Shown here: piece after piece, positions 2,211-23,620 of the stretch | How the letters are laid out: every line of letters starts with the position of its first letter | Position numbering within the stretch: the stretch's first letter is position 1 | From: a virus | Virus record (IMG/VR): IMGVR_UViG_3300046680_000326 | Span: 1-26,183 of that record | Strand: one strand, 5' to 3' | Length of the DNA stretch: 26,183 bases | Notes under the pieces: model-generated | Told to the model about the DNA's origin: nothing | Seen by the model: the letters and a program-made list of their open reading frames with translations, nothing else | Databases searched by the model: none | Translations under genes and position numbers: made by a program

Positions 2211-3149
2211 ATGTCTACGCTCGTCACGCCCAACGTTGCACCCGACCTCATCGAAGACGAATTCGACATCTGGGCCGAGGCCGCCAAGGACGCTGAGAAG
2301 GTCATCGGCATCACGGCCGCCGCCATCCGCGACCTCTGGGGCGCCGAACACCCCGCCGTCGCCGGCGATGAGGCCGCCCTCGTCGAGCTCGCGCTCACCG
2401 GCGAGGACACGACGGCCCGCGAGGTGGCCCGCGAGACCTTGACGGCCGCGTACGTGGGCGGTCCGGTTAAGCGCATCATCGCTCTGCACACGCGCCGCGA
2501 GGACGCCGAGGACATCCGCCAGTCGGCGGCCGAGGGCATTTGGCGCGGGCTCAACGCGTTCAACCCCGCCAAGCACCGCCGGCCCGTGGCCACGATTCAG
2601 CGCGAGGTGTTGGCCGCCCTCGACGAGGTCCACGCGGCCCGGTTCGGCCTCAAGGTGCCCGAGGTTGACCGCCTCAAGTACGCCAAGGCGCGCGCCGAGG
2701 CCGCCAAGCGCATCGTGGCCGAGAACGGCGACGGTCGGGGCATCGAAGACCTCGCCGCCGAGATCGCCCCCGAGTTCGGTCTCTCGACGTCCGACTACTG
2801 GCACGTGGACCGCGTCGTTCACCTCGGCGAGGTTCAGGCCAACGGCGAGGCGCAAGAGGCCACGGCCCGCCGCGCGGCCGGCGAGGGCGGCGAGCCCTTC
2901 GACGCTATTTGGTCGGAAGCCACGCCCAACGTTGGGCACGATACGCTCGTCGAGGCGTTCCTCGGCTACCTCGACGACCGCGAGCGCGAGGTGATCGCCC
3001 GCCGGTTTGGCCTCGACGGATTCCCCGCGCACACCGAGGACGAGGCCGCCGCCGCGCTCAATCTGTCGGACCGTCGCATCCGCCAGATTCAGGCCGCCGC
3101 GCTCTCCAAGTTGCGCTCGACGGTGGGCGTGGCCGACGTCGAGGCGTAA
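2211..3149 (+). CDS. phage sigma-70 family RNA polymerase sigma factor
   Basis: A 312-residue sigma factor that would direct host RNA polymerase to phage promoters. Region 4 is clear near the C-terminus: LDDREREVIARRFGLDG, then the helix-turn-helix TEDEAAAALNLSDRRIRQIQ and a final AAALSKLR. A region 2-like part (REDAEDIRQSAAEGIWRGLNAFNP) lies around residues 105-130, followed by RRPVATIQREVLAALDEVH. The start ATG 2211 has AAAGGA 8 bases upstream; the open frame reaches further upstream but without a ribosome site. Two copies of the dispersed palindrome lie inside the gene, at codons 6-11 (TPNVAP) and again near 2922 (TPNVGH), between regions 2 and 4. The gene also has a palindrome over its promoter, so it is probably under the control of the same binding protein. 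Which promoters it reads is unknown. The C6-GACACGTA boxes are one candidate. Confidence 0.88.
   Translation: MSTLVTPNVAPDLIEDEFDIWAEAAKDAEKVIGITAAAIRDLWGAEHPAVAGDEAALVELALTGEDTTAREVARETLTAAYVGGPVKRIIALHTRREDAEDIRQSAAEGIWRGLNAFNPAKHRRPVATIQREVLAALDEVHAARFGLKVPEVDRLKYAKARAEAAKRIVAENGDGRGIEDLAAEIAPEFGLSTSDYWHVDRVVHLGEVQANGEAQEATARRAAGEGGEPFDAIWSEATPNVGHDTLVEAFLGYLDDREREVIARRFGLDGFPAHTEDEAAAALNLSDRRIRQIQAAALSKLRSTVGVADVEA
2226..2243 (+). promoter_or_regulatory. intragenic AACGTT-type site at sigma codons 6-11
   Basis: ACGCCCAACGTTGCACCC has a perfect left half and a changed right half. It is read as T-P-N-V-A-P in the sigma factor. Confidence 0.6.
2922..2939 (+). promoter_or_regulatory. intragenic AACGTT-type site in the sigma gene
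   Basis: ACGCCCAACGTTGGGCAC matches the palindrome except for the last two bases. It is read as T-P-N-V-G-H between regions 2 and 4. Confidence 0.65.
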
Positions 3150-4957: not shown

Positions 4958-4987
4958 TTGCGCCCAACGTTGGGCGTGGTCTAGAGT
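4958..4987 (+). promoter_or_regulatory. operator-promoter cassette 1
   Basis: TTGCGC (4958-4963), 18-bp spacer, TAGAGT (4982-4987). The perfect palindrome CGCCCAACGTTGGGCG (4961-4976) fills the spacer and overlaps the -35, so a bound protein would block RNA polymerase. The same architecture recurs at 6635, 7286, 7773 and 8129. Confidence 0.85.
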
Positions 4988-5004
4988 CTGGGCCACAAGC
5001 TCAA

Positions 5005-5016
5005 CCGACCAAGGAG
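5005..5016 (+). repeat. start-associated sequence CCGACCAAGGAG, copy 1
   Basis: The 12-mer contains the ribosome binding site and is repeated exactly at 6585-6596, 6682-6693, 7335-7346 and 7824-7835, with a relaxed copy near 8355. It lies 7-8 bases before the start codon of each cassette gene. Confidence 0.75.
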
Positions 5017-5024
5017 CGCACAAC

Positions 5025-5420
5025 ATGACCGGCAACCTCATCTCGAACCTCCGTATCGCCGGCTCGGCGGCCGTCACGCCCGAGGTGGGCATGGGCGCAA
5101 CCGTCTGCCACTGGAAGGACCGCAACGCGGCCACCGTCGTCGCCGTCCGCTTCAAGCGCGATGGCTCGGTCAAGGAGGTCGACATCCGTGGCGACAAGGT
5201 CACCCGGACCGACTCGAACGGCATGAGCGACGCCCAGAGCTACGACTACGCGCCCGGCGACGAGGGCTCGCCCGTGGGCACGTGGCGCCTCGACGGCAAG
5301 GGCCAGTGGCGCGCCGTGCACCTCGACAGTGCGACCGGCCGGTACCGCATGGAGCACGCCCGCTACGGCGCCAAGCTCGCCCTTGGCGTCCGCGAAGAGT
5401 TCTACGACTACTCGTTCTGA
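5025..5420 (+). CDS. conserved phage protein of unknown function (131 aa)
   Basis: A 131-residue beta-rich protein. It matches a pattern I know from many phages and plasmids: a GMGATVCHWKDRNAATVV opening, a TRTDSNGMSDAQSYDY centre and an LALGVREEFYDYSF end. Its biochemical role is not established. It is the only gene of its unit, driven by operator-promoter cassette 1, with a good ribosome site (AAGGAG) inside the start-associated repeat. A GC-rich hairpin follows. Repression by the palindrome-binding protein is likely. Confidence 0.85.
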   Translation: MTGNLISNLRIAGSAAVTPEVGMGATVCHWKDRNAATVVAVRFKRDGSVKEVDIRGDKVTRTDSNGMSDAQSYDYAPGDEGSPVGTWRLDGKGQWRAVHLDSATGRYRMEHARYGAKLALGVREEFYDYSF

Positions 5421-5429
5421 GCCCGCCAC

Positions 5430-5456
5430 GGGGCCGGCTAGACCGGTCGGCCCCGC
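5430..5456 (+). terminator. GC-rich hairpin, possible terminator
   Basis: CGGGGCCG (5430-5437) pairs with CGGCCCCG (5449-5456) across an 11-base loop. It follows the 131-aa gene by 9 bases. No T-tract follows, so termination is uncertain. Confidence 0.5.
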
Positions 5457-5473
5457 CGCCTACCCACGCCCGC

Positions 5474-5479
5474 TAGGCT
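5474..5479 (+). promoter_or_regulatory. candidate -10 for a leaderless transcript
   Basis: TAGGCT ends 6 bases before the ATG at 5486, which itself has no ribosome site. No clear -35 is visible. Confidence 0.4.
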
Positions 5480-5485
5480 TCCCAT

Positions 5486-5851
5486 ATGCGCCCTATCACC
5501 GTCCTGCACATACCAGCGGCGGCCGTCACGCTCGACGAGTGCGAGCGGCACACCGTGGCCGCCATCACGGACGTACAGCGCCTCGTCGGCGGGTACGTCG
5601 AGGAGTTCCGAGTTCCGGCGTCGGGCGGCGTCGTGATGTTCGGCGACGAGCGCGCCCGCGAGACCGGCCGAGAAACGAACATGCTCGCCACGCTCATCGT
5701 CGAGCACTACGGCGAGCGGGCCGGCGACCAGACGCTACGCCACGTCGTCGGCGACGTCGTGTTCTGCCATTACGACGACGCCGGACACGAGGGCGACGTG
5801 CCCGAGGCGTTCCTAGCCGAGGTGCGCGACCGCGTCCAACCGCTCGTCTAG
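5486..5851 (+). CDS. DUF3846 domain protein
   Basis: A 121-residue protein with the DUF3846 pattern. A short beta strand (ITVLHIPAAAV) is followed by DVQRLVGGYVEEFRV, an acidic FGDERARETGRETNMLATLI section and a VVGDVVFCHYD strand, ending in a helix. The family is common in phages and mobile elements of actinobacteria and firmicutes, and its function is not known. There is no ribosome site before the ATG, and TAGGCT at 5474-5479 suggests a leaderless mRNA. It ends shortly before the HicAB operator. Confidence 0.8.
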   Translation: MRPITVLHIPAAAVTLDECERHTVAAITDVQRLVGGYVEEFRVPASGGVVMFGDERARETGRETNMLATLIVEHYGERAGDQTLRHVVGDVVFCHYDDAGHEGDVPEAFLAEVRDRVQPLV

Positions 5852-5866
5852 TCCCCATAGACTCAC

Positions 5867-5908
5867 GTCTAGACCCCCTTGACCTTTGACGTCTAGGGGG
5901 TCTAGACT
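5867..5908 (+). promoter_or_regulatory. hicAB promoter with 13-bp inverted repeat operator
   Basis: TTGACC (5879-5884), 18-bp spacer, TAGACT (5903-5908). A perfect inverted repeat, GTCTAGACCCCCT (5867-5879) against its complement (5895-5907), embraces the -35 and -10. A further half-site GTCTAGTCCCC lies at about 5846-5856. This differs completely from the AACGTT palindrome and is best explained as the autoregulatory operator of the toxin-antitoxin pair. Confidence 0.75.
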
Positions 5909-5915
5909 TATGCTC

Positions 5916-6125
5916 ATGGCCAAGGAGATGAAATACCGCGAGATCAGCAAGAACCTGACCGCCGCCGGCGCGCGAGTCATCCGCGACGGTAAGGGCTCAC
6001 ATGTCGTGTGGGCGTGCTGCAACGCTCACTCGGTGGGCGTTCCGCAGCACAGCGTCAGCCCCGGCGTGGTCCGTCAGGTCGAGCGCGCGTTGATCTGCCT
6101 TCCGAAGGGAGCTGTTCAGAAGTGA
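5916..6125 (+). CDS. hicA: HicA-like mRNA interferase toxin
   Basis: A 69-residue protein with the HicA (YcfA) double-stranded RNA-binding-like fold. It has MKYREISKNLTAAGARVIRDG, then the catalytic region GKGSHVVW with His29, a strand SVGVPQHS and a C-terminal helix PGVVRQVERALI. HicA toxins cleave mRNA and are neutralised by HicB. I chose ATG 5916 because it lies 7 bases after the -10, giving a leaderless start; ATG 5910 or ATG 5928 are alternatives. The stop overlaps the start of the next gene (GTGA), as expected for a coupled toxin-antitoxin pair. Confidence 0.83.
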   Translation: MAKEMKYREISKNLTAAGARVIRDGKGSHVVWACCNAHSVGVPQHSVSPGVVRQVERALICLPKGAVQK

Positions 6126-6559
6126 AAGCCGCGCCAGGGTATCCACCCATGGCCGACGCCTACCGGGTCAGTGCGACCCGGTGGGCGCGCGGGTGGGAAT
6201 TGCACGTGATCGACTTGACGCACGGCGAGATTGGCGTGACGACCACCAAGGGGCGTGACCTCGCTGGCGCAACGGCCATGGTCCGCGATTACCTGACCGT
6301 CGTCTACGACCTCGACGACGCCGAGGCCGAGGCCGTAGTGATCGAGGTCTCGCCCGACCTCGGCGACGAGGCCGCCGACCTCATCGCCAACGCGCGTGAG
6401 CTCGCCGCCGCCGCTGTAGCCGCTCAGGCTGCCGCAGCGACCGCGAGTCGTGCTGTGGTGGCCTACCTCGACGCGGAAGGGCTCAACGGCCGCGAGATCG
6501 CCACCGTGCTCGACCTGAGCCCTCAGCGCGTGTCGCAGTTGCTCAAGCCCGCCGGGTGA
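6122..6559 (+). CDS. hicB: HicB-like antitoxin with helix-turn-helix
   Basis: A 145-residue protein. Residues 10-60 fit the HicB partial RNase H-like fold (YRVSATRWARGWELHVIDL, GVTTTKGRDLAGATAMVRDY). A long Ala-rich helix (about 85-115) leads to a C-terminal helix-turn-helix, LNGREIATVLDLSPQRVSQLL, which would bind the operator at 5867-5907. The GTG start 6122 overlaps the hicA stop and has GGGAG 10 bases upstream; ATG 6149 is a possible alternative. The acidic antitoxin would both bind HicA and repress the operon. Carriage by a phage suggests maintenance or defence against other phages. Confidence 0.8.
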   Translation: MKAAPGYPPMADAYRVSATRWARGWELHVIDLTHGEIGVTTTKGRDLAGATAMVRDYLTVVYDLDDAEAEAVVIEVSPDLGDEAADLIANARELAAAAVAAQAAAATASRAVVAYLDAEGLNGREIATVLDLSPQRVSQLLKPAG

Positions 6560-6568
6560 CGCGCGAGA

Positions 6569-6612
6569 CCGGACGGCGCCCATTCCGACCAAGGAGATAT
6601 GGCGCCGTCCGG
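6569..6612 (+). terminator. 12-bp hairpin with a ribosome site in its loop
   Basis: CCGGACGGCGCC (6569-6580) pairs perfectly with 6601-6612. The 20-base loop contains the start-associated sequence CCGACCAAGGAG, and an ATG follows at 6599. It may terminate hicAB, or be a remnant or regulated start for the 20-codon frame 6599-6661, which runs into the next promoter. Confidence 0.55.
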
Positions 6613-6634
6613 CCGCGCTCATCCTAGCGCGCAC

Positions 6635-6664
6635 TTGCGCCCAACGTTGGGCGTGGTGTAGAGT
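6635..6664 (+). promoter_or_regulatory. operator-promoter cassette 2
   Basis: TTGCGC (6635-6640), 18-bp spacer, TAGAGT (6659-6664), with the perfect palindrome CGCCCAACGTTGGGCG at 6638-6653. Confidence 0.85.
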
Positions 6665-6701
6665 TTCACTCGTCAGCCCAACCGACCAAGGAGCCCAGAC
6701 C

Positions 6702-6983
6702 GTGAACATCCTCCGCAGCGACATTGCCCAGACCCGCGCCGTCGTGATCACCGTCAACGCCCCGGGTGTCCGCAGTCTGCACGATGCGCGTCCGATGACC
6801 TTCGGCGTGGGCCGCGTGGTCACGGCGCACTGGAACCCCAACGACACCGTGTCGGTGTTCGTCGGCCTCGCGCTCCACTACGACGGCCCGCGCCCCGAGG
6901 GCATCGACACCTACACCTCGCGTGAGTTCTACGCGTGGGTGCGCGACCTCGCCACGGCGGCCGAGGGCCGCGAGTGCGACTGA
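6702..6983 (+). CDS. hypothetical protein (93 aa)
   Basis: Unrecognised small protein, apparently beta-rich in its first half (TRAVVITVNAPGVRSL, TFGVGRVVTAHW, TVSVFVGLALHYDGP) with a C-terminal helix REFYAWVRDLATAAE. The GTG start 6702 is set by AAGGAG within the start-associated repeat at 6682-6693. It is the first gene behind operator-promoter cassette 2 and is followed 32 bases later by the coiled-coil gene, so the two are probably one transcript. Confidence 0.75.
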   Translation: MNILRSDIAQTRAVVITVNAPGVRSLHDARPMTFGVGRVVTAHWNPNDTVSVFVGLALHYDGPRPEGIDTYTSREFYAWVRDLATAAEGRECD

Positions 6984-7015
6984 CCCCCAACCGACCTACC
7001 CGAGGAGACCACACC

Positions 7016-7279
7016 ATGCCCGTCAGCAACGAAACCGCCCGCCACGTCTGCGACCGAGCAGAGCGCGCGCTCGGCGAGGTGGAGGCGTTCTACACCTCGG
7101 CCCGCCGGGCGGCCGAGCAGGTCGAGACCGACGCGCCCGACGCCCTCCGGATCATGGTCGAGGGCGTCGAGGACGCTGCCCGCGAGGCGGCGGAAGCGCT
7201 CCGGTGCGCGTGGCAGCGCGCCGAACGACTCCGGCGCAACCTCACCACCGCCAACGCGCACCACGCCAGAAACGTCTAG
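7016..7279 (+). CDS. small helical, coiled-coil-like protein (87 aa)
   Basis: An 87-residue, almost wholly helical protein rich in Ala, Glu and Arg (CDRAERALGEVEAFYTSARR ... EDAAREAAEALRCAWQRAER), consistent with a coiled coil or helical hairpin. No function can be assigned. ATG 7016 has GAGGAG 8 bases upstream. It lies in the transcription unit of operator-promoter cassette 2 and ends 6 bases before cassette 3. Confidence 0.72.
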   Translation: MPVSNETARHVCDRAERALGEVEAFYTSARRAAEQVETDAPDALRIMVEGVEDAAREAAEALRCAWQRAERLRRNLTTANAHHARNV

Positions 7280-7285
7280 GGGGAC

Positions 7286-7315
7286 TTGCGCCCAACGTTG
7301 GGCGTGGTGTAAGCT
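7286..7315 (+). promoter_or_regulatory. operator-promoter cassette 3
   Basis: TTGCGC (7286-7291), 18-bp spacer, TAAGCT (7310-7315), with the perfect palindrome at 7289-7304. The downstream leader is nearly the same as that of cassette 4, including ACACCGACCAAGGAGA. Confidence 0.85.
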
Positions 7316-7352
7316 GTTCTCAACAGCAAGGACACCGACCAAGGAGACCGAA

Positions 7353-7727
7353 ATGTTCGCTCAGACCACCACCGCCCACTACCTCGCCGCCCTGCTCGCC
7401 GCTCAGGCCGCTGACCCGCGCATCGCGGGCGCGACCACTCCGGCGATGGAGCTCGACCTCGTGGGCGCGATGGTGTTCCTCTCGGCCGATGAGAACACCG
7501 GCTACGCCGTCAAGGCGTCCGGTGAGCTCGTGGGCGTGTTCTCCACGATCAAGGGTCGCGGTGACGCGATCGTGGCGGACGCGATCGTGAACGGCGCCAA
7601 CGCCCTCGACTGCTTCGATGGCTACCTTCCCTCGTTCTACGCCCGACACGGTTTCGTGGAGACCGCCCGCGCGGCAAACTGGACCGCCGGGGCGCCCGAC
7701 GTGGTGTTCATGGCGCTCGCCCGATAG
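7353..7727 (+). CDS. GNAT-like acetyltransferase-fold protein
   Basis: A 124-residue protein. The C-terminal half resembles the end of a GNAT fold: a strand GYAVKASGELVGVFS, a helix GDAIVADAIVNGANALDCF, then DGYLPSFYARHGFVETA, where FYARHGF matches the typical GNAT strand 5-helix 4 end. The usual acetyl-CoA pyrophosphate loop (Q/RxxGxG/A) is not obvious (only KGRGDA), so activity on acetyl-CoA is uncertain. The gene has its own operator-promoter and is followed by a strong terminator, so it is a self-contained unit. A role in modifying a host or phage protein is only a guess. Confidence 0.65.
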   Translation: MFAQTTTAHYLAALLAAQAADPRIAGATTPAMELDLVGAMVFLSADENTGYAVKASGELVGVFSTIKGRGDAIVADAIVNGANALDCFDGYLPSFYARHGFVETARAANWTAGAPDVVFMALAR

Positions 7728-7739
7728 GGCGTCGCGCGG

Positions 7740-7768
7740 AAGGGGTCGGCCAAACGGTCGGCCCCTTT
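7740..7768 (+). terminator. rho-independent terminator
   Basis: A 12-bp stem (7740-7751 against 7756-7767, two G-U pairs) with an AAAC loop, ending in CCCCTTT. It closes the GNAT-like gene unit. Confidence 0.8.
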
Positions 7769-7772
7769 CGAC

Positions 7773-7802
7773 TTGCGCCCAACGTTGGGCGTGGTGTAAG
7801 CT
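7773..7802 (+). promoter_or_regulatory. operator-promoter cassette 4
   Basis: TTGCGC (7773-7778), 18-bp spacer, TAAGCT (7797-7802), with the perfect palindrome at 7776-7791. Confidence 0.85.
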
Positions 7803-7842
7803 GTAGCCAGACAGCAAGGAACACCGACCAAGGAGACACACC

Positions 7843-8124
7843 ATGGACGCCAACCAGATCAACGCCACCGCCCTCGACCTCCTCGCCGCCGCCGACTCGC
7901 TCGACGCCGACGCCGCGCTCGTCGAGGTCGGCGATCAGGCGGCCGGCGAGGTCTACGCCGGTTACGAGAACGTGATCGAACTCCGCGCCGCGCTCATCGC
8001 GTTGGACATCAAGGCCAAGCCCGCCGGATTCCTCGCGCTCCTCCGCATCGCCGGCGACGCGCTCAACCGGGCCGACGACGCGCACCGCGCGGCCACCGGC
8101 GAGTACGTTCCGATCAACGCCTAG
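7843..8124 (+). CDS. hypothetical helical protein (93 aa)
   Basis: Unrecognised, acidic, almost wholly helical protein: INATALDLLAAADSLDADAA, then ENVIELRAALIALDIKAKP and LLRIAGDALNRADDAHRAAT. No membrane segment or catalytic motif is seen. ATG 7843 has AAGGAG 7 bases upstream inside the start-associated repeat. It is the single gene behind operator-promoter cassette 4 and lies directly before cassette 5. Confidence 0.75.
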   Translation: MDANQINATALDLLAAADSLDADAALVEVGDQAAGEVYAGYENVIELRAALIALDIKAKPAGFLALLRIAGDALNRADDAHRAATGEYVPINA

Positions 8125-8128
8125 GCAC

Positions 8129-8158
8129 TTGCGCCCAACGTTGGGCGTGGCATAGAAT
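8129..8158 (+). promoter_or_regulatory. operator-promoter cassette 5
   Basis: TTGCGC (8129-8134), 18-bp spacer, TAGAAT (8153-8158), with the perfect palindrome at 8132-8147. This copy has the best -10 of the five. Confidence 0.85.
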
Positions 8159-8190: not shown

Positions 8191-8295
8191 ATGATTACGT
8201 TCGTCATACTCGCCGCCCTCGCGTGGGCCCTCACCAACATCATCACGACGCTCCTCGCCGGCCAGGCCAAGGCCAAGGGGGAGCGCTCCGAGTAG
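8191..8295 (+). CDS. 34-residue single-span membrane peptide
   Basis: A short frame from ATG 8191 encodes 34 residues: MITFVILAALAWALTN, then IITTLLAG and the charged end QAKAKGERSE. Residues 3-23 are hydrophobic enough for one membrane helix, with a basic C-terminus that would stay inside. GGAAGGA about 11 bases upstream is a fair ribosome site. Operator-promoter cassette 5, with the best -10 of the set, has no other gene to drive before the next palindrome, which supports this as a real gene. Function unknown; phage micro-membrane proteins include holins and exclusion factors. Confidence 0.7.
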   Translation: MITFVILAALAWALTNIITTLLAGQAKAKGERSE

Positions 8296-8322: not shown

Positions 8323-8344
8323 CCACGCCCAACGTTGGGCGTGG
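8323..8344 (+). promoter_or_regulatory. perfect 22-bp palindrome without a promoter
   Basis: The dispersed element is extended here to a perfect 22-bp palindrome (core ACGCCCAACGTTGGGCGT at 8325-8342 plus CC/GG). There is no TTG -35 or TANNNT -10 around it, so it is an operator without a promoter of its own. It sits between the membrane peptide and the DUF2637 gene, where a bound protein could block read-through. Confidence 0.75.
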
Positions 8345-8374: not shown

Positions 8375-8992
8375 GTGAACGTGCTCAAGACTGCCAAGTT
8401 CAGCGCCTACACCATCGCTCTCATCGCGGGTGTCATGTCCTACGGCCACCAATCGACGTTGCTCCTCGACTCGCGCGCGGGCATCTACAGCTACGCCGTG
8501 CCCCTCACGGTCGACGTGCTCGCGTTCATCTCGGCCATGGTGCGCAACTCGGATCAGGTCGACCGGACCACGCGTAAGGCCGCAGCCGCTCTGCTCGTCC
8601 TCGCCGGCTCCATGAGCATCGCGGCCAACGTCGCCGTGGGCGAGAACGTGATTCAGCGCATTGTCGGTGTCTGGACGGTGGCCGCCTATCTGCTCGCCGA
8701 GTGGTTTGTCTCGCGTCTCAAGCCCGCGCCCGAGCCCGCGCCCGAGCCCGTCGAGGTCGAGGCGCCCGACGACGACCCCGCCGACGAGGTCGACGCCGAG
8801 GAGTTCGCCCGCCGCAGCGAGGCCGCCAAGCGCGGCGCAGCGACCCGCGCGGCCAACCGTGCGGCCAAAGCCAAGGCCGAGCGGTCCGCCGCCCGCGCGG
8901 CCCGCCGTGCGCCCGCCACGGCCGCCGACATGGCCGCGATAGAGGCTCTGCTCGCGCCCACGCACTCCCGCGCCGAGCCCGTCGCCGCCTAG
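8375..8992 (+). CDS. DUF2637-type (SpdB-like) membrane protein
   Basis: A 205-residue protein with four predicted membrane helices at about 9-23, 40-57, 70-89 and 94-112. It carries the conserved YTIALIAGVMSYGHQ start and PLTVDVLAFISAMV segment of DUF2637, a family known from Streptomyces plasmids (the SpdB spread proteins) and actinophages. The rest is a cytoplasmic tail: a PEPAPEPAPEP linker, an acidic stretch (EAPDDDPADEVD) and a basic Ala/Arg/Lys-rich tail (RAANRAAKAKAERSAARAAR) that could bind nucleic acid. The GTG start 8375 has AAGGGAG upstream. A terminator follows. Confidence 0.82.
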   Translation: MNVLKTAKFSAYTIALIAGVMSYGHQSTLLLDSRAGIYSYAVPLTVDVLAFISAMVRNSDQVDRTTRKAAAALLVLAGSMSIAANVAVGENVIQRIVGVWTVAAYLLAEWFVSRLKPAPEPAPEPVEVEAPDDDPADEVDAEEFARRSEAAKRGAATRAANRAAKAKAERSAARAARRAPATAADMAAIEALLAPTHSRAEPVAA

Positions 8993-9915: not shown

Positions 9916-11655
9916 ATGCATTCCGACCAACCCAACGTTGCGCGCAAGCATACGCCCAACGTTACGCAGAGTGATACGCCCAACGTTACGCCCCATCCCA
10001 AGGAGTGCGCCGCGCTCTACCTCCGGCGGTCCAAGAAATCCGCAGTGAACGACTACCGCAATCGATCCATAGCCGAGCAGGAAGGCGAGGGCCGCGCGTG
10101 GGCGGCCGACGAGCGCTTAACCGTCGTCAAGGTCTTCACCGAGGAGGAAGGCACCGGCGCCTCACGCCACTCGCGCAAGAAACGACCCGAGTGGGATACC
10201 GCCCTCGCCGAGCTCCGCGAGGGCTCCGAGTTCCGAACGCTCATCGTTCTTGAGGTCAGCCGCGCGGACCGCCGTGGCGCCGCCCAGATAGCCGCGCTCC
10301 TCGACGAACACCGCGTGACCGGCCGCCGGCTCTACATCGTCGATGACGGCCTCGACAGCGCCTCGGAGAACGACCGCCGCCGCATCATCGACAAGGCCGA
10401 GTCAGCGCGCGAGGAGTCCGAGCGTCTGTCGAAGCGCATTCAGCGCACCAAGCGCTACCGGCGCGCAGACGGCTACTTCATGGGCGGGCACGCTCCATTC
10501 GGCCTCAAGCAAGCCGTGCCCGAGGGCGAGACGTCCGCCGTCGCCCTCGCCGTCGACTCCGAGACGTGGCCCGACGCCCGCCGCCTCGCCGAGATGGCGC
10601 TACAGGGTATGACCGGCCCCAAGATCGCCGCTGAGCTCAACAGGCTCGGCATCAAACCCCCCGGCCGCGCCGAGGTGTGGCGCGATCCCACCGTGTACCA
10701 CCTACTCAAGTCGCCCTCGTGGGCCGGCTTGCAAACGGAGGACTCGCGGCGCGACGATTCCGAGGGCGGCGGGTGGCGCCGCTCGTGGGACGCCATGCTC
10801 AACGAGGACGGCTCAAACGTATTGCTCAAGGCCGTAGGTCCGGACGGCCTCGACGCCGAGCCCGGCTCGGCCCGCGTGATCACACCCGACGAGCGCACGA
10901 TGATTCTCGCCATGCTCGCCGCCCGCAGCGCAGTCACGACGTATATGCGAGCCAAGCAATCCGATGGCCTCGCACGCCGTGGCAAGCGCACGTCCACAAC
11001 CGTCCTCGCCGGAACGGACGGCCTCTTGCGCTGCCACACGTGCAAGGGCCGGACCGAGGCGACCGGCGCCGTGGGCAAGACGTTCTACCGGTGCGCCGCC
11101 ATCGGCGAGTGCGTCGGCTTCACTGCGCCCATGATGAAGATCGACACGTACGTGATCGGTCAGTTCATGGCCATGCTCCAATTCAGCCCCGATGACTCGC
11201 CCCTCGTCCGACTCGTCGCCGCGCGCCTCGGCGTACGCCAGAACCCCGGCGCCGCCAACGAGCGCGCCGAGGCAACCAAGGTGATCAGCCACGCTCGGGC
11301 CGAGGTCGAGCGCATCGAAGATCTGTTGATCGACGGCCGTATCGGCGACGCCGTGGCCGACCGCCGCCGCGCCGCCGCGCTTAACACGATCGCCGTGGCC
11401 GAGGCACGTCTCGCCTCGATCATCGAGCACGTGCCCACCGGCGCCGACCTACGGCGGCACTTGGCATCGTGGGACACGCTCGCACTCGACGACCAGCGCG
11501 CACTACTCGCCATGGCCGTAGACCGCATATATGCGGTCAAGGTCGGCCAGGGCCGCAAGACGACGCCCGGCGACCGCCTCGTGATCGAGTGGAACGAGGC
11601 CGCCACGCTCGCCGCCGTCGAGGCGTTCCGAGACGTAACGACGCGCACCGAGTAA
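9916..11655 (+). CDS. int: large serine recombinase (integrase)
   Basis: A 579-residue large serine recombinase that would integrate and excise the phage genome. The catalytic domain runs from about residue 32: AALYLRRSKKSAV with the probable nucleophile Ser39, then FRTLIVLEVSRADRRGAAQI. The recombinase domain includes GYFMGGHAPFGLK and MTGPKIAAELNRLGIKPPG. A zinc ribbon (LRCHTCKGR ... YRCAAIGEC) and a coiled coil follow. The N-terminus is odd. About 28 extra residues precede the catalytic strand, and they are encoded by three copies of the dispersed palindrome at exact 24-bp steps, giving QPNV, TPNV, TPNV. No ribosome site precedes ATG 9916, so translation is probably near-leaderless. An AAGGAG at about 9999-10004 has no good start codon after it. 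Confidence 0.93.
   Translation: MHSDQPNVARKHTPNVTQSDTPNVTPHPKECAALYLRRSKKSAVNDYRNRSIAEQEGEGRAWAADERLTVVKVFTEEEGTGASRHSRKKRPEWDTALAELREGSEFRTLIVLEVSRADRRGAAQIAALLDEHRVTGRRLYIVDDGLDSASENDRRRIIDKAESAREESERLSKRIQRTKRYRRADGYFMGGHAPFGLKQAVPEGETSAVALAVDSETWPDARRLAEMALQGMTGPKIAAELNRLGIKPPGRAEVWRDPTVYHLLKSPSWAGLQTEDSRRDDSEGGGWRRSWDAMLNEDGSNVLLKAVGPDGLDAEPGSARVITPDERTMILAMLAARSAVTTYMRAKQSDGLARRGKRTSTTVLAGTDGLLRCHTCKGRTEATGAVGKTFYRCAAIGECVGFTAPMMKIDTYVIGQFMAMLQFSPDDSPLVRLVAARLGVRQNPGAANERAEATKVISHARAEVERIEDLLIDGRIGDAVADRRRAAALNTIAVAEARLASIIEHVPTGADLRRHLASWDTLALDDQRALLAMAVDRIYAVKVGQGRKTTPGDRLVIEWNEAATLAAVEAFRDVTTRTE
9928..9993 (+). promoter_or_regulatory. three tandem AACGTT-type sites in the integrase N-terminus
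   Basis: Sites at 9928-9945, 9952-9969 and 9976-9993 share a CCCAACGTT core and begin exactly 24 bp apart. That equals eight codons and also a little over two DNA turns, so bound proteins would sit on nearly the same face. They start about 30 bp after the candidate -10 and probably form a road-block or repression cluster. Confidence 0.7.
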
Positions 11656-11662
11656 TAGCCCG

Positions 11663-11722
11663 TCAGTCTGCTTCCCCCCGGTTGACACGTAATCCGTGCC
11701 CAACCGAGAGGAAGCAGACTGA
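11663..11722 (+). promoter_or_regulatory. 13-bp inverted repeat masking a ribosome binding site, with C6 box copy 2 inside
   Basis: TCAGTCTGCTTCC (11663-11675) pairs perfectly with 11710-11722. The right arm contains the GGAAG of the ribosome site and the A of the start ATG at 11722. The loop holds the C6-GACACGTA box (11672-11691, partly in the left arm). In RNA the stem would hide the start. In DNA it could be an operator. Confidence 0.6.
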
Positions 11723-13029: not shown

Positions 13030-13034
13030 CCGAT

Positions 13035-13054
13035 TTCCCCCCGCTAGACACGTA
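13035..13054 (+). promoter_or_regulatory. C6-GACACGTA box, copy 3
   Basis: TTCCCCCC-GCTA-GACACGTA, flanked by the inverted hexamers CACTAG (13024-13029) and CTAGTG (13056-13061). It lies 53 bases before the HNH gene. Confidence 0.5.
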
Positions 13055-13064
13055 TCTAGTGAAA

Positions 13065-14348: not shown

Positions 14349-14445
14349 TCGCGCGTACTCAACGGCTCACCATAGCCGCGCTCAATAGGCAGAGCGGCCC
14401 CGTCAGAAACCGGGGCGGTTGTCGGTTCGAATCCGACCGCGCGAG
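14349..14445 (+). tRNA. tRNA-like gene of unusual shape (possible pseudo-tRNA)
   Basis: TCGCGCG (14349-14355) pairs perfectly with CGCGCGA (14438-14444). The T-arm GTCGG-TTCGAAT-CCGAC (14421-14437) is perfect, the variable loop has 5 bases, and the D-arm GCTC-AATAGGCA-GAGC (14380-14395) is typical. Two things are odd. A 22-base insert with its own CGGCT/AGCCG hairpin (14358-14379) lies between position 9 and the D-arm. The anticodon arm CCCCG/CGGGG has an 8-base loop TCAGAAAC. No anticodon can be assigned safely. It may be a decayed tRNA or a non-standard one. No CCA is encoded. Confidence 0.45.
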
Positions 14446-14551
14446 CGTCAGGAAAGATGCCAACCCGTGTATAGAGGTCGGGGCATCCGCGCAGGCAGTG
14501 ACGTGGTTCGGCCTGCAACCATTCTTCCCTTAGGCACCGAGGAGCTTTCGC

Positions 14552-19874: not shown

Positions 19875-20426
19875 ATGACCGACACCGCCCCCGCCGCCGA
19901 GCCCGGCTCGGCCCCCACTGACGCACCGGCCGCCACGCCCAACGTTGCGCCCGAAACGCCGCCGTGGGGCGACGACTTCGACCCCGCCCGCGCGTGGAAT
20001 CTGGTCCAGAACCTCCGCGCCGACAAGGAGAAGTTGACCGGGAAGGTCACCGATTTCGAGAAGGCAGCGCAGGACGCCGCCGACGCCAAGAAGTCCGACC
20101 TTGAGCGCGCCCTCGCGCGCGCAGAGAAGGCGGAAAAGGCCATCGCGGACCGCGAGGCCGCCGCAAAGCGCACTGCCGTGCTCGAAAAGCACGGCCTGAG
20201 CGCAGACGACGCCGCATTCCTCGCGGGCGTCTCCGATGACGACTTGGACGCGCGCGCGCAGGCGCTCGCCGCCCGTTTCGGCGTCGGCCAGTCCAAGCCG
20301 GACGCCGCCGAGGCGATCCCCGGCAAGCCAACCCCCAAGCTCACCGCCGGCCACGCGTCCAGTGACGCGCCCGACGCATTCGACCCGCTGGCGCTCGCGG
20401 AAAAGGTCCACAAGCGCCTCATCTGA
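19875..20426 (+). CDS. capsid scaffold protein
   Basis: A 183-residue acidic protein with the typical scaffold layout: a Pro/Ala-rich N-terminus, a long charged coiled coil (about residues 48-105: LRADKEKLTGKVTDFEKAAQ and onwards), then a short C-terminal part with KVHKRLI, the basic helix expected to bind the capsid protein. It directly precedes the major capsid gene. The ATG 19875 has CAGGAG upstream. One copy of the dispersed palindrome lies in the N-terminal linker, read T-P-N-V-A-P, exactly as in the sigma factor N-terminus. Confidence 0.85.
   Translation: MTDTAPAAEPGSAPTDAPAATPNVAPETPPWGDDFDPARAWNLVQNLRADKEKLTGKVTDFEKAAQDAADAKKSDLERALARAEKAEKAIADREAAAKRTAVLEKHGLSADDAAFLAGVSDDDLDARAQALAARFGVGQSKPDAAEAIPGKPTPKLTAGHASSDAPDAFDPLALAEKVHKRLI
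19935..19952 (+). promoter_or_regulatory. intragenic AACGTT-type site in the scaffold gene
   Basis: ACGCCCAACGTTGCGCCC has a perfect left half and a degenerate right half, read T-P-N-V-A-P. Confidence 0.6.
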
Positions 20427-21369: not shown

Positions 21370-21387
21370 ACGCCCAACGTAGGGCGT
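21370..21387 (+). promoter_or_regulatory. AACGTA-type operator just after the capsid gene
   Basis: ACGCCCAACGTAGGGCGT, 6 bases after the capsid stop, is identical to the site after the tail tube gene (23603-23620). It has one change in the centre. No promoter surrounds it. Confidence 0.65.
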
Positions 21388-23602: not shown

Positions 23603-23620
23603 ACGCCCAACGTAGGGCGT
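23603..23620 (+). promoter_or_regulatory. AACGTA-type operator just after the tail tube gene
   Basis: ACGCCCAACGTAGGGCGT, identical to 21370-21387 and in the same setting. The preceding AGTC is shared as well. Confidence 0.65.

Follow-up and report, generated by a model that had tools for sequence, protein, structure and literature searches.

The phiC31 repressor c binds repeated inverted sites in the phiC31 genome. The phiC31 gene order is deoxynucleoside monophosphate (dNMP) kinase, repressor c, gp54 and exonuclease, with the sigma factor gene (gp12) directly after the DNA polymerase gene. A 'putative immunity repressor' is encoded between dNMP kinase and exonuclease genes in the Streptomyces prophage Samy, and its gene is reported to be highly expressed under all tested conditions, including non-inducing ones (PMC11302927). 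In L5/Bxb1 (cluster A) mycobacteriophages, promoters and short gaps between genes throughout the genome carry one type of site, and the hallmark of these stoperators is an orientation that follows transcription (PMC9283540). The L5 sites are 13 bp long, asymmetric and bound by a monomer. Short inverted repeats (17-18 bp) also precede right-end genes in Microbacterium cluster EG and mycobacteriophage cluster O, 14-22 bp upstream of the start codons (PMC7302621). Powerpuff, of cluster AZ, forms stable, homoimmune lysogens, and AZ, EH and Zeta1847 phages have been described without an identified repressor (PMC8758107, PMC7302621). Here, a stretch of 26,183 nucleotides from a soil phage (IMG/VR record IMGVR_UViG_3300046680_000326, positions 1 to 26,183; the window) was analysed, in which five near-identical promoters between 4958 and 8158 carry a 16-bp palindrome, the operator, in the -35/-10 spacer. 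The array belongs to an operator network that extends over the whole genome and also takes in the promoter of a phage sigma factor, the promoter of the probable repressor gene and directional sites behind structural genes. The array promoters are probably host-sigma promoters of right-arm cassettes that one phage repressor, most likely the product of a gene designated u7971, would block via the spacer operator in a system of phiC31 type.

The window overlaps contig G003, which carries the other half of the same phage (6 differences in 5,752 bases and 2 in 592 bases), and together they represent a genome of ~40.8 kb. Its closest isolated relatives belong to Arthrobacter cluster AZ (Azeevirinae) and Microbacterium cluster EH, with which it has part of the gene order in common (DNA polymerase I, sigma-like factor, serine integrase and small right-arm genes). 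The serine integrase gene suggests that the phage is of temperate type.

Five promoters with the operator in the spacer

The pattern TTGCGC-N18-TANNNT has five exact matches in the window, all on the + strand, compared with 0.05 expected in shuffled sequence. The palindrome CGCCCAACGTTGGGCG begins at the fourth base of every unit and fills the spacer, and the positions, -10 variants and fixed place of the palindrome are exactly those reported in the first-pass annotation, as is the assignment of one or two small genes to each unit. The unit consensus is TTG-CGCCCAACGTTGGGCG-N5-TAnnnT, with an extended form ACTTG-(16-bp palindrome)-TGNNN-TAnnnT.

4958-4987, + strand: promoter 1, operator at 4961-4976, then TGGTC and -10 TAGAGT; genes 5025-5420 and 5486-5851
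6635-6664, + strand: promoter 2, operator at 6638-6653, -10 TAGAGT; genes 6702-6983 and 7016-7279
7286-7315, + strand: promoter 3, operator at 7289-7304, -10 TAAGCT; gene 7353-7727 (phrog_2563)
7773-7802, + strand: promoter 4, operator at 7776-7791, -10 TAAGCT; gene 7843-8124
8129-8158, + strand: promoter 5, operator at 8132-8147, -10 TAGAAT; gene 8191-8295 (34 amino acids)

The hexamers (TTGCGC-18-TAnnnT) have the ~17-18 bp separation of sigma-70-type promoters, a spacing that is kept in relatives. The five promoters are genuine, and the sites are above chance. The terminators that had been placed at the end of several units are weakly supported: hairpins followed by short T-runs can be read by eye just before 4958 and 7773, and a scan of the interval from 4.7 to 8.6 kb detected no intrinsic terminators.

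Fifteen genomes, comprising cluster AZ and EH phages, other isolates (Zeta-type, BaileyBlu) and the lineage of the window itself, were scanned for the right-arm layout, TTG followed by a 16-mer starting with CG and by TAnnnT. All 15 contain it, nearly always on the coding strand, and a palindrome scan of IMG/VR recovered several contigs in which the promoter of the window recurs with unchanged spacing (e.g. L005, L009, L013, L017 and L019). The retention of this architecture in relatives supports the earlier description of a modular, similarly regulated array with the operator inside the spacer. However, the 16-bp operators themselves are lineage-specific (approximately CGYAAG-NCGN-CTTRCG in AZ-type phages, CGTAAGACGTCTTGCG in IAmGroot), and one layout with differing operators indicates that the architecture is older than the operator sequence.

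The same variation bears on the identity of the binding protein. Were a host transcription factor to bind the operators, the array would sense host physiology, and the AACGTT/ACGT centre does fit several host regulator families on general knowledge. However, operator sequences differ between lineages even for phages of one host genus while the register stays constant, and the dispersed, polar copies described below suit a phage repressor better, making a host factor very unlikely.

The array had also been attributed to spread through duplication of the promoter block. Recent duplication was rejected, since the cassette proteins showed no relatedness when compared with each other and a promoter-gene pair is common to relatives. 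Identity between cassettes is confined to a ~32-bp promoter core and a stretch resembling the ribosome-binding-site-like CCGACCAAGGAG. The promoter at 7286 and its gene 7353-7727 occupy the same place in three relatives (G001, G002 and G004), and the pair is therefore old.

Operator sites across the phage genome

About 25 operator-like sites are present in the ~40.8 kb genome. When up to three mismatches to the CGCCCAACGTTGGGCG 16-mer are allowed, 20 sites are found in the window versus 0.65 expected, and ~14 imperfect copies lie outside the block 4958-8158. Hence, the first-pass annotation was right about the array but too narrow in scope, as operators are spread genome-wide.

2011-2026, + strand: imperfect operator upstream of the sigma gene, upstream half intact
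2084-2118, + strand: predicted promoter of the sigma-factor gene, read from sequence as TTGACC (2084-2089), 17 bp and TAACGT (2107-2112)
2211-3149, + strand: gene for a phage sigma-70-like factor (Sigma70_r4, r2); internal operator copies at 2227 and 2923
8326-8341, strand unspecified: sixth perfect operator, lacking promoter hexamers, upstream of a DUF2637-type gene (8375-8992)
9929-9992, + strand: imperfect operators at 9929, 9953 and 9977, where the serine integrase gene (9916-11655) begins
19936-19951, + strand: imperfect operator CGCCCAACGTTGCGCC in the scaffold gene; identical 16-mer in the structural part of relatives
21371-21386, + strand: stoperator-like site CGCCCAACGTAGGGCG immediately 3' of the major capsid stop codon; perfect palindrome there in several relatives
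23604-23619, + strand: stoperator-like site CGCCCAACGTAGGGCG immediately 3' of the stop codon of the major tail gene; several relatives have a perfect site there

The operator CGCCTAACGTTGGTCG (2103-2118) is centred on the -10 of the predicted sigma-factor promoter. The IMG/VR scan found perfect palindromes directly after capsid and tail genes in several further contigs. The start of the serine integrase gene (9916-9995) encodes repeated PNV motifs because its coding sequence contains the three operators.

Imperfect, non-promoter copies were assessed for polarity in eight contigs of the window lineage. As judged by the raw count, the half-site met first by RNA polymerase is the better one in 59 copies and the worse one in 6. 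With homologous sites collapsed, the ratio is 32:5 in favour of the upstream half-site (p = 7e-6), and it is 17:0 among copies with one or two mismatches. Palindromes with shuffled halves, used as a control in three of the eight genomes, averaged 1.8 such copies and never exceeded 7. In AZ/EH phages the bias is weaker, at 24:8 (p 0.007). Dispersed imperfect sites thus retain the upstream half-site, like stoperators. As in L5/Bxb1, a single type of site is found genome-wide, both at promoters and between closely spaced genes, and is oriented with transcription. Unlike the asymmetric L5 sites, the consensus is palindromic and 16 bp long, and dispersed copies show decay of the downstream half. 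The cluster EG and cluster O repeats resemble the operators in preceding right-end genes, but they lie outside the promoter spacer, and cluster EG lacks an integrase or repressor.

The polarity also argues against a role of the palindrome as an RNA hairpin in attenuation, processing or mRNA stability. The palindrome is foldable in RNA and two copies immediately follow the major capsid and tail genes, but it lies upstream of the predicted start in the five promoters and would not be transcribed there, and the retention of a single half-site in imperfect copies destroys the hairpin. This role is contradicted by the half-site decay and was rejected as extremely improbable.

A candidate repressor gene

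HicAB (5916-6559) was the sole obvious candidate regulator with a helix-turn-helix motif. HicB (6122-6559) was rejected as the regulator, as the parts of G001, G002, G004 and G005 that were searched yielded no hicAB, although all four bear the operator. The HicA/HicB-like toxin-antitoxin pair (5879-6559) has its own strong sigma-70-type promoter, TTGACG-17-TATGCT, without an operator, and is thus perhaps expressed in the lysogen.

The candidate favoured here lies outside the window, at a locus of phiC31 type.

L022 7971-8606 (contig G003): u7971, conserved gene between lysin and exonuclease genes

In the window lineage, the -10 of u7971, TACGAT, forms the middle of an operator variant, CGCCC-TACGAT-GGGCG, that ends one base before the ATG, which indicates a leaderless gene. 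The u7971 -10 of AZ and EH phages is preceded, at a distance of 5 bp, by an operator-like 16-mer, a register identical to that of the right-arm promoters. Simple counting of 16-mers did not discriminate this site because GC-rich coding repeats dominate, and a matrix built from the right-arm promoters of the other genomes, leaving one genome out at a time, was used instead. The site was recovered in seven of seven AZ genomes, ranking 3-19 of ~43,000 positions (P 0.003-0.014 per genome, values that are not independent as the AZ genomes are mutually related). About 100 homologues of u7971 occur in phage records, nearly all annotated as hypothetical (e.g. Powerpuff gp25). Two more, on the large contigs L094 (Arthrobacter sp. 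EPSL27) and L095 (Cryobacterium sp. BB307), are likely in prophages, and their flanks are too short to reveal a promoter array. Repeated GGGTCGCA(A) units fill part of the gap between u7971 and the exonuclease gene (L022 8600-8790).

Several comparisons connect u7971 with known repressors. Like c, u7971 is found between genes of the lysis/dNMP kinase side and an exonuclease gene. The putative Samy repressor has sequence similarity to the u7971 family, with E 2e-3 against the protein of the window phage and 2e-9 against that of MaGuCo. Profile-profile comparison with relatives of c gave 53% probability and E 1.3e-4 over 92 columns, and the second structural match of the predicted u7971 model is the Nesbitt immunity repressor, a c relative. 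As direct comparison of the single u7971 or Samy sequence with phiC31 c was negative, homology of u7971 with c is likely but unproven; u7971 is the counterpart of c by position and is probably its true counterpart as well.

The phiC31 genome also has a 16-bp palindrome with an ACGT centre, CTACTCACGTGAGTAG, 11 copies of which lie in its right 27 kb (14-41.5 kb). In both systems, a multi-copy palindromic operator of ~16 bp is common to early promoters and the repressor region, with many copies that surround the repressor gene, precede the sigma factor and follow genes. However, the phiC31 operator differs in sequence and its copies are near-perfect and non-polar, c has 683 amino acids while u7971 has ~200 and is leaderless, and arrays of cassettes with operator-filled spacers are the rule in the window phage and its relatives.

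A u7971 homologue is also present in the 'Aborting Lytic Development' (ald) locus of phiAAU2 (Y11761), together with an AZ-type operator and a leaderless promoter. However, the Y11761 record assigns 'ald' to a small open reading frame (ORF) in another frame that overlaps the homologue. In this record (L043, 278-788), the ATG that opens the conserved frame is at 278 and lies ahead of annotated ORF II; family-like sequence continues in a second frame, and the annotated 'ald' ORF is in the third.

The name of the phiAAU2 locus also bears on the direction of control. The weak -35 element, TTGCGC, could suggest that u7971 activates the operator promoters, but a bound site over the spacer, overlapping the -10 of the sigma and repressor promoters, has the geometry of a repressor site, and the homologous locus was named for aborting lytic development. 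Activation is accordingly hard to credit.

Another phage protein, most plausibly the factor resembling sigma-70 (2211-3149) or a small regulator as yet unrecognised, might instead bind the palindrome, with u7971 merely regulated by it. The sigma-like gene is kept throughout the lineage, with operators upstream of it and within it. However, sigma factors read -35 and -10 elements and not 16-bp palindromes recurring behind structural genes, phiC31 has a separate repressor c despite a sigma factor at the same place, and it is u7971 for which repressor-type relatives exist. This alternative is unlikely.

Some observations weigh against u7971 as the repressor. The phage sigma-like protein is as well conserved as u7971; in addition to the negative single-sequence comparison, u7971 has no recognisable DNA-binding domain in Pfam or PHROG and no clear fold match in the PDB, where generic helical matches alone were obtained. 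Binding of the operator by u7971 and expression of the gene are deduced from sequence, and the window phage is known as a metagenome contig, its lysogeny being deduced from the integrase gene.

Proposed regulation

Repression by u7971 is nevertheless the explanation favoured here. The positions, conservation and polarity of the sites, the synteny and the u7971 family are the observations on which we base the proposed DNA binding, repression, identity of the repressor gene and timing and order of events. In this model, the phage is a temperate actinophage and the five units are promoters of host-sigma type that drive right-arm cassettes, which are probably early. All operators would be bound by u7971 in the lysogen, including the one in the spacer of each cassette promoter, and these promoters would be closed. 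On the -10 of the sigma-factor promoter it would close the sigma gene, and any promoters read by the phage sigma factor would then be closed too. Through the operator on its own -10, u7971 would tune its own promoter, and copies with a conserved half-site behind structural genes would act as a directional roadblock, catching leak-through transcription. Upon induction, the cassettes and the sigma factor would be switched on, and the sigma factor may then read the repeat TTTCCCCCC-N4-GACACGTAT ahead of replication genes.

The u7971 family probably holds Arthrobacter and Microbacterium phages of this group dormant. On a broader proposal, to which we give even chances, Azeevirinae and Microbacterium, Curtobacterium and uncultured relatives share an overlooked immunity system with a leaderless repressor of ~200 amino acids without a recognised DNA-binding domain and with palindromes in promoter spacers. 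Loss of a half-site would make directional stoperators behind structural genes, linking the phiC31 and L5 types of repression. With a named candidate gene (Powerpuff gp25 and ~100 phage homologues) and its operators, the repressor question becomes directly testable. If true, the proposal would provide a new family of repressors that naturally differ widely in operator specificity, and a means to annotate lysogeny in AZ/EH-type phages. It would also offer a system where direction is encoded by palindromic sites.

Additional sequence elements

The repeats TTTCCCCCC-N4-GACACGTAT(C) form a second intergenic family, upstream of replication and other genes, with 0.03 expected in the window.

Window, 1338-1359, 11672-11692 and 13034-13055: TTTCCCCCC-N4-GACACGTAT(C) repeats
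L010, 518, 2222 and 4215: the same repeats
L022, 9005, 9924 and 10049: the same repeats

They are possible promoters for the phage sigma factor. Comparable places carry other repeats in AZ (CTGGCTCCCTCTC..TGTC) and EH phages (GGCGGTCTTCT).

ARAGORN called a tRNA with a four-base anticodon at 14349-14446, possibly falsely.

BaileyBlu, phiMiGM15 and the window lineage lack the element GTTTACAC/GTGTAAAC, which is hence not part of the operator system in the window lineage. Most AZ, EH and Zeta-type phages (L030 and L031 among others) carry ~14-33 copies per genome, placed right after the -10 in AZ and inside the spacer in EH phages, and in these phages the element may belong to a second regulator.

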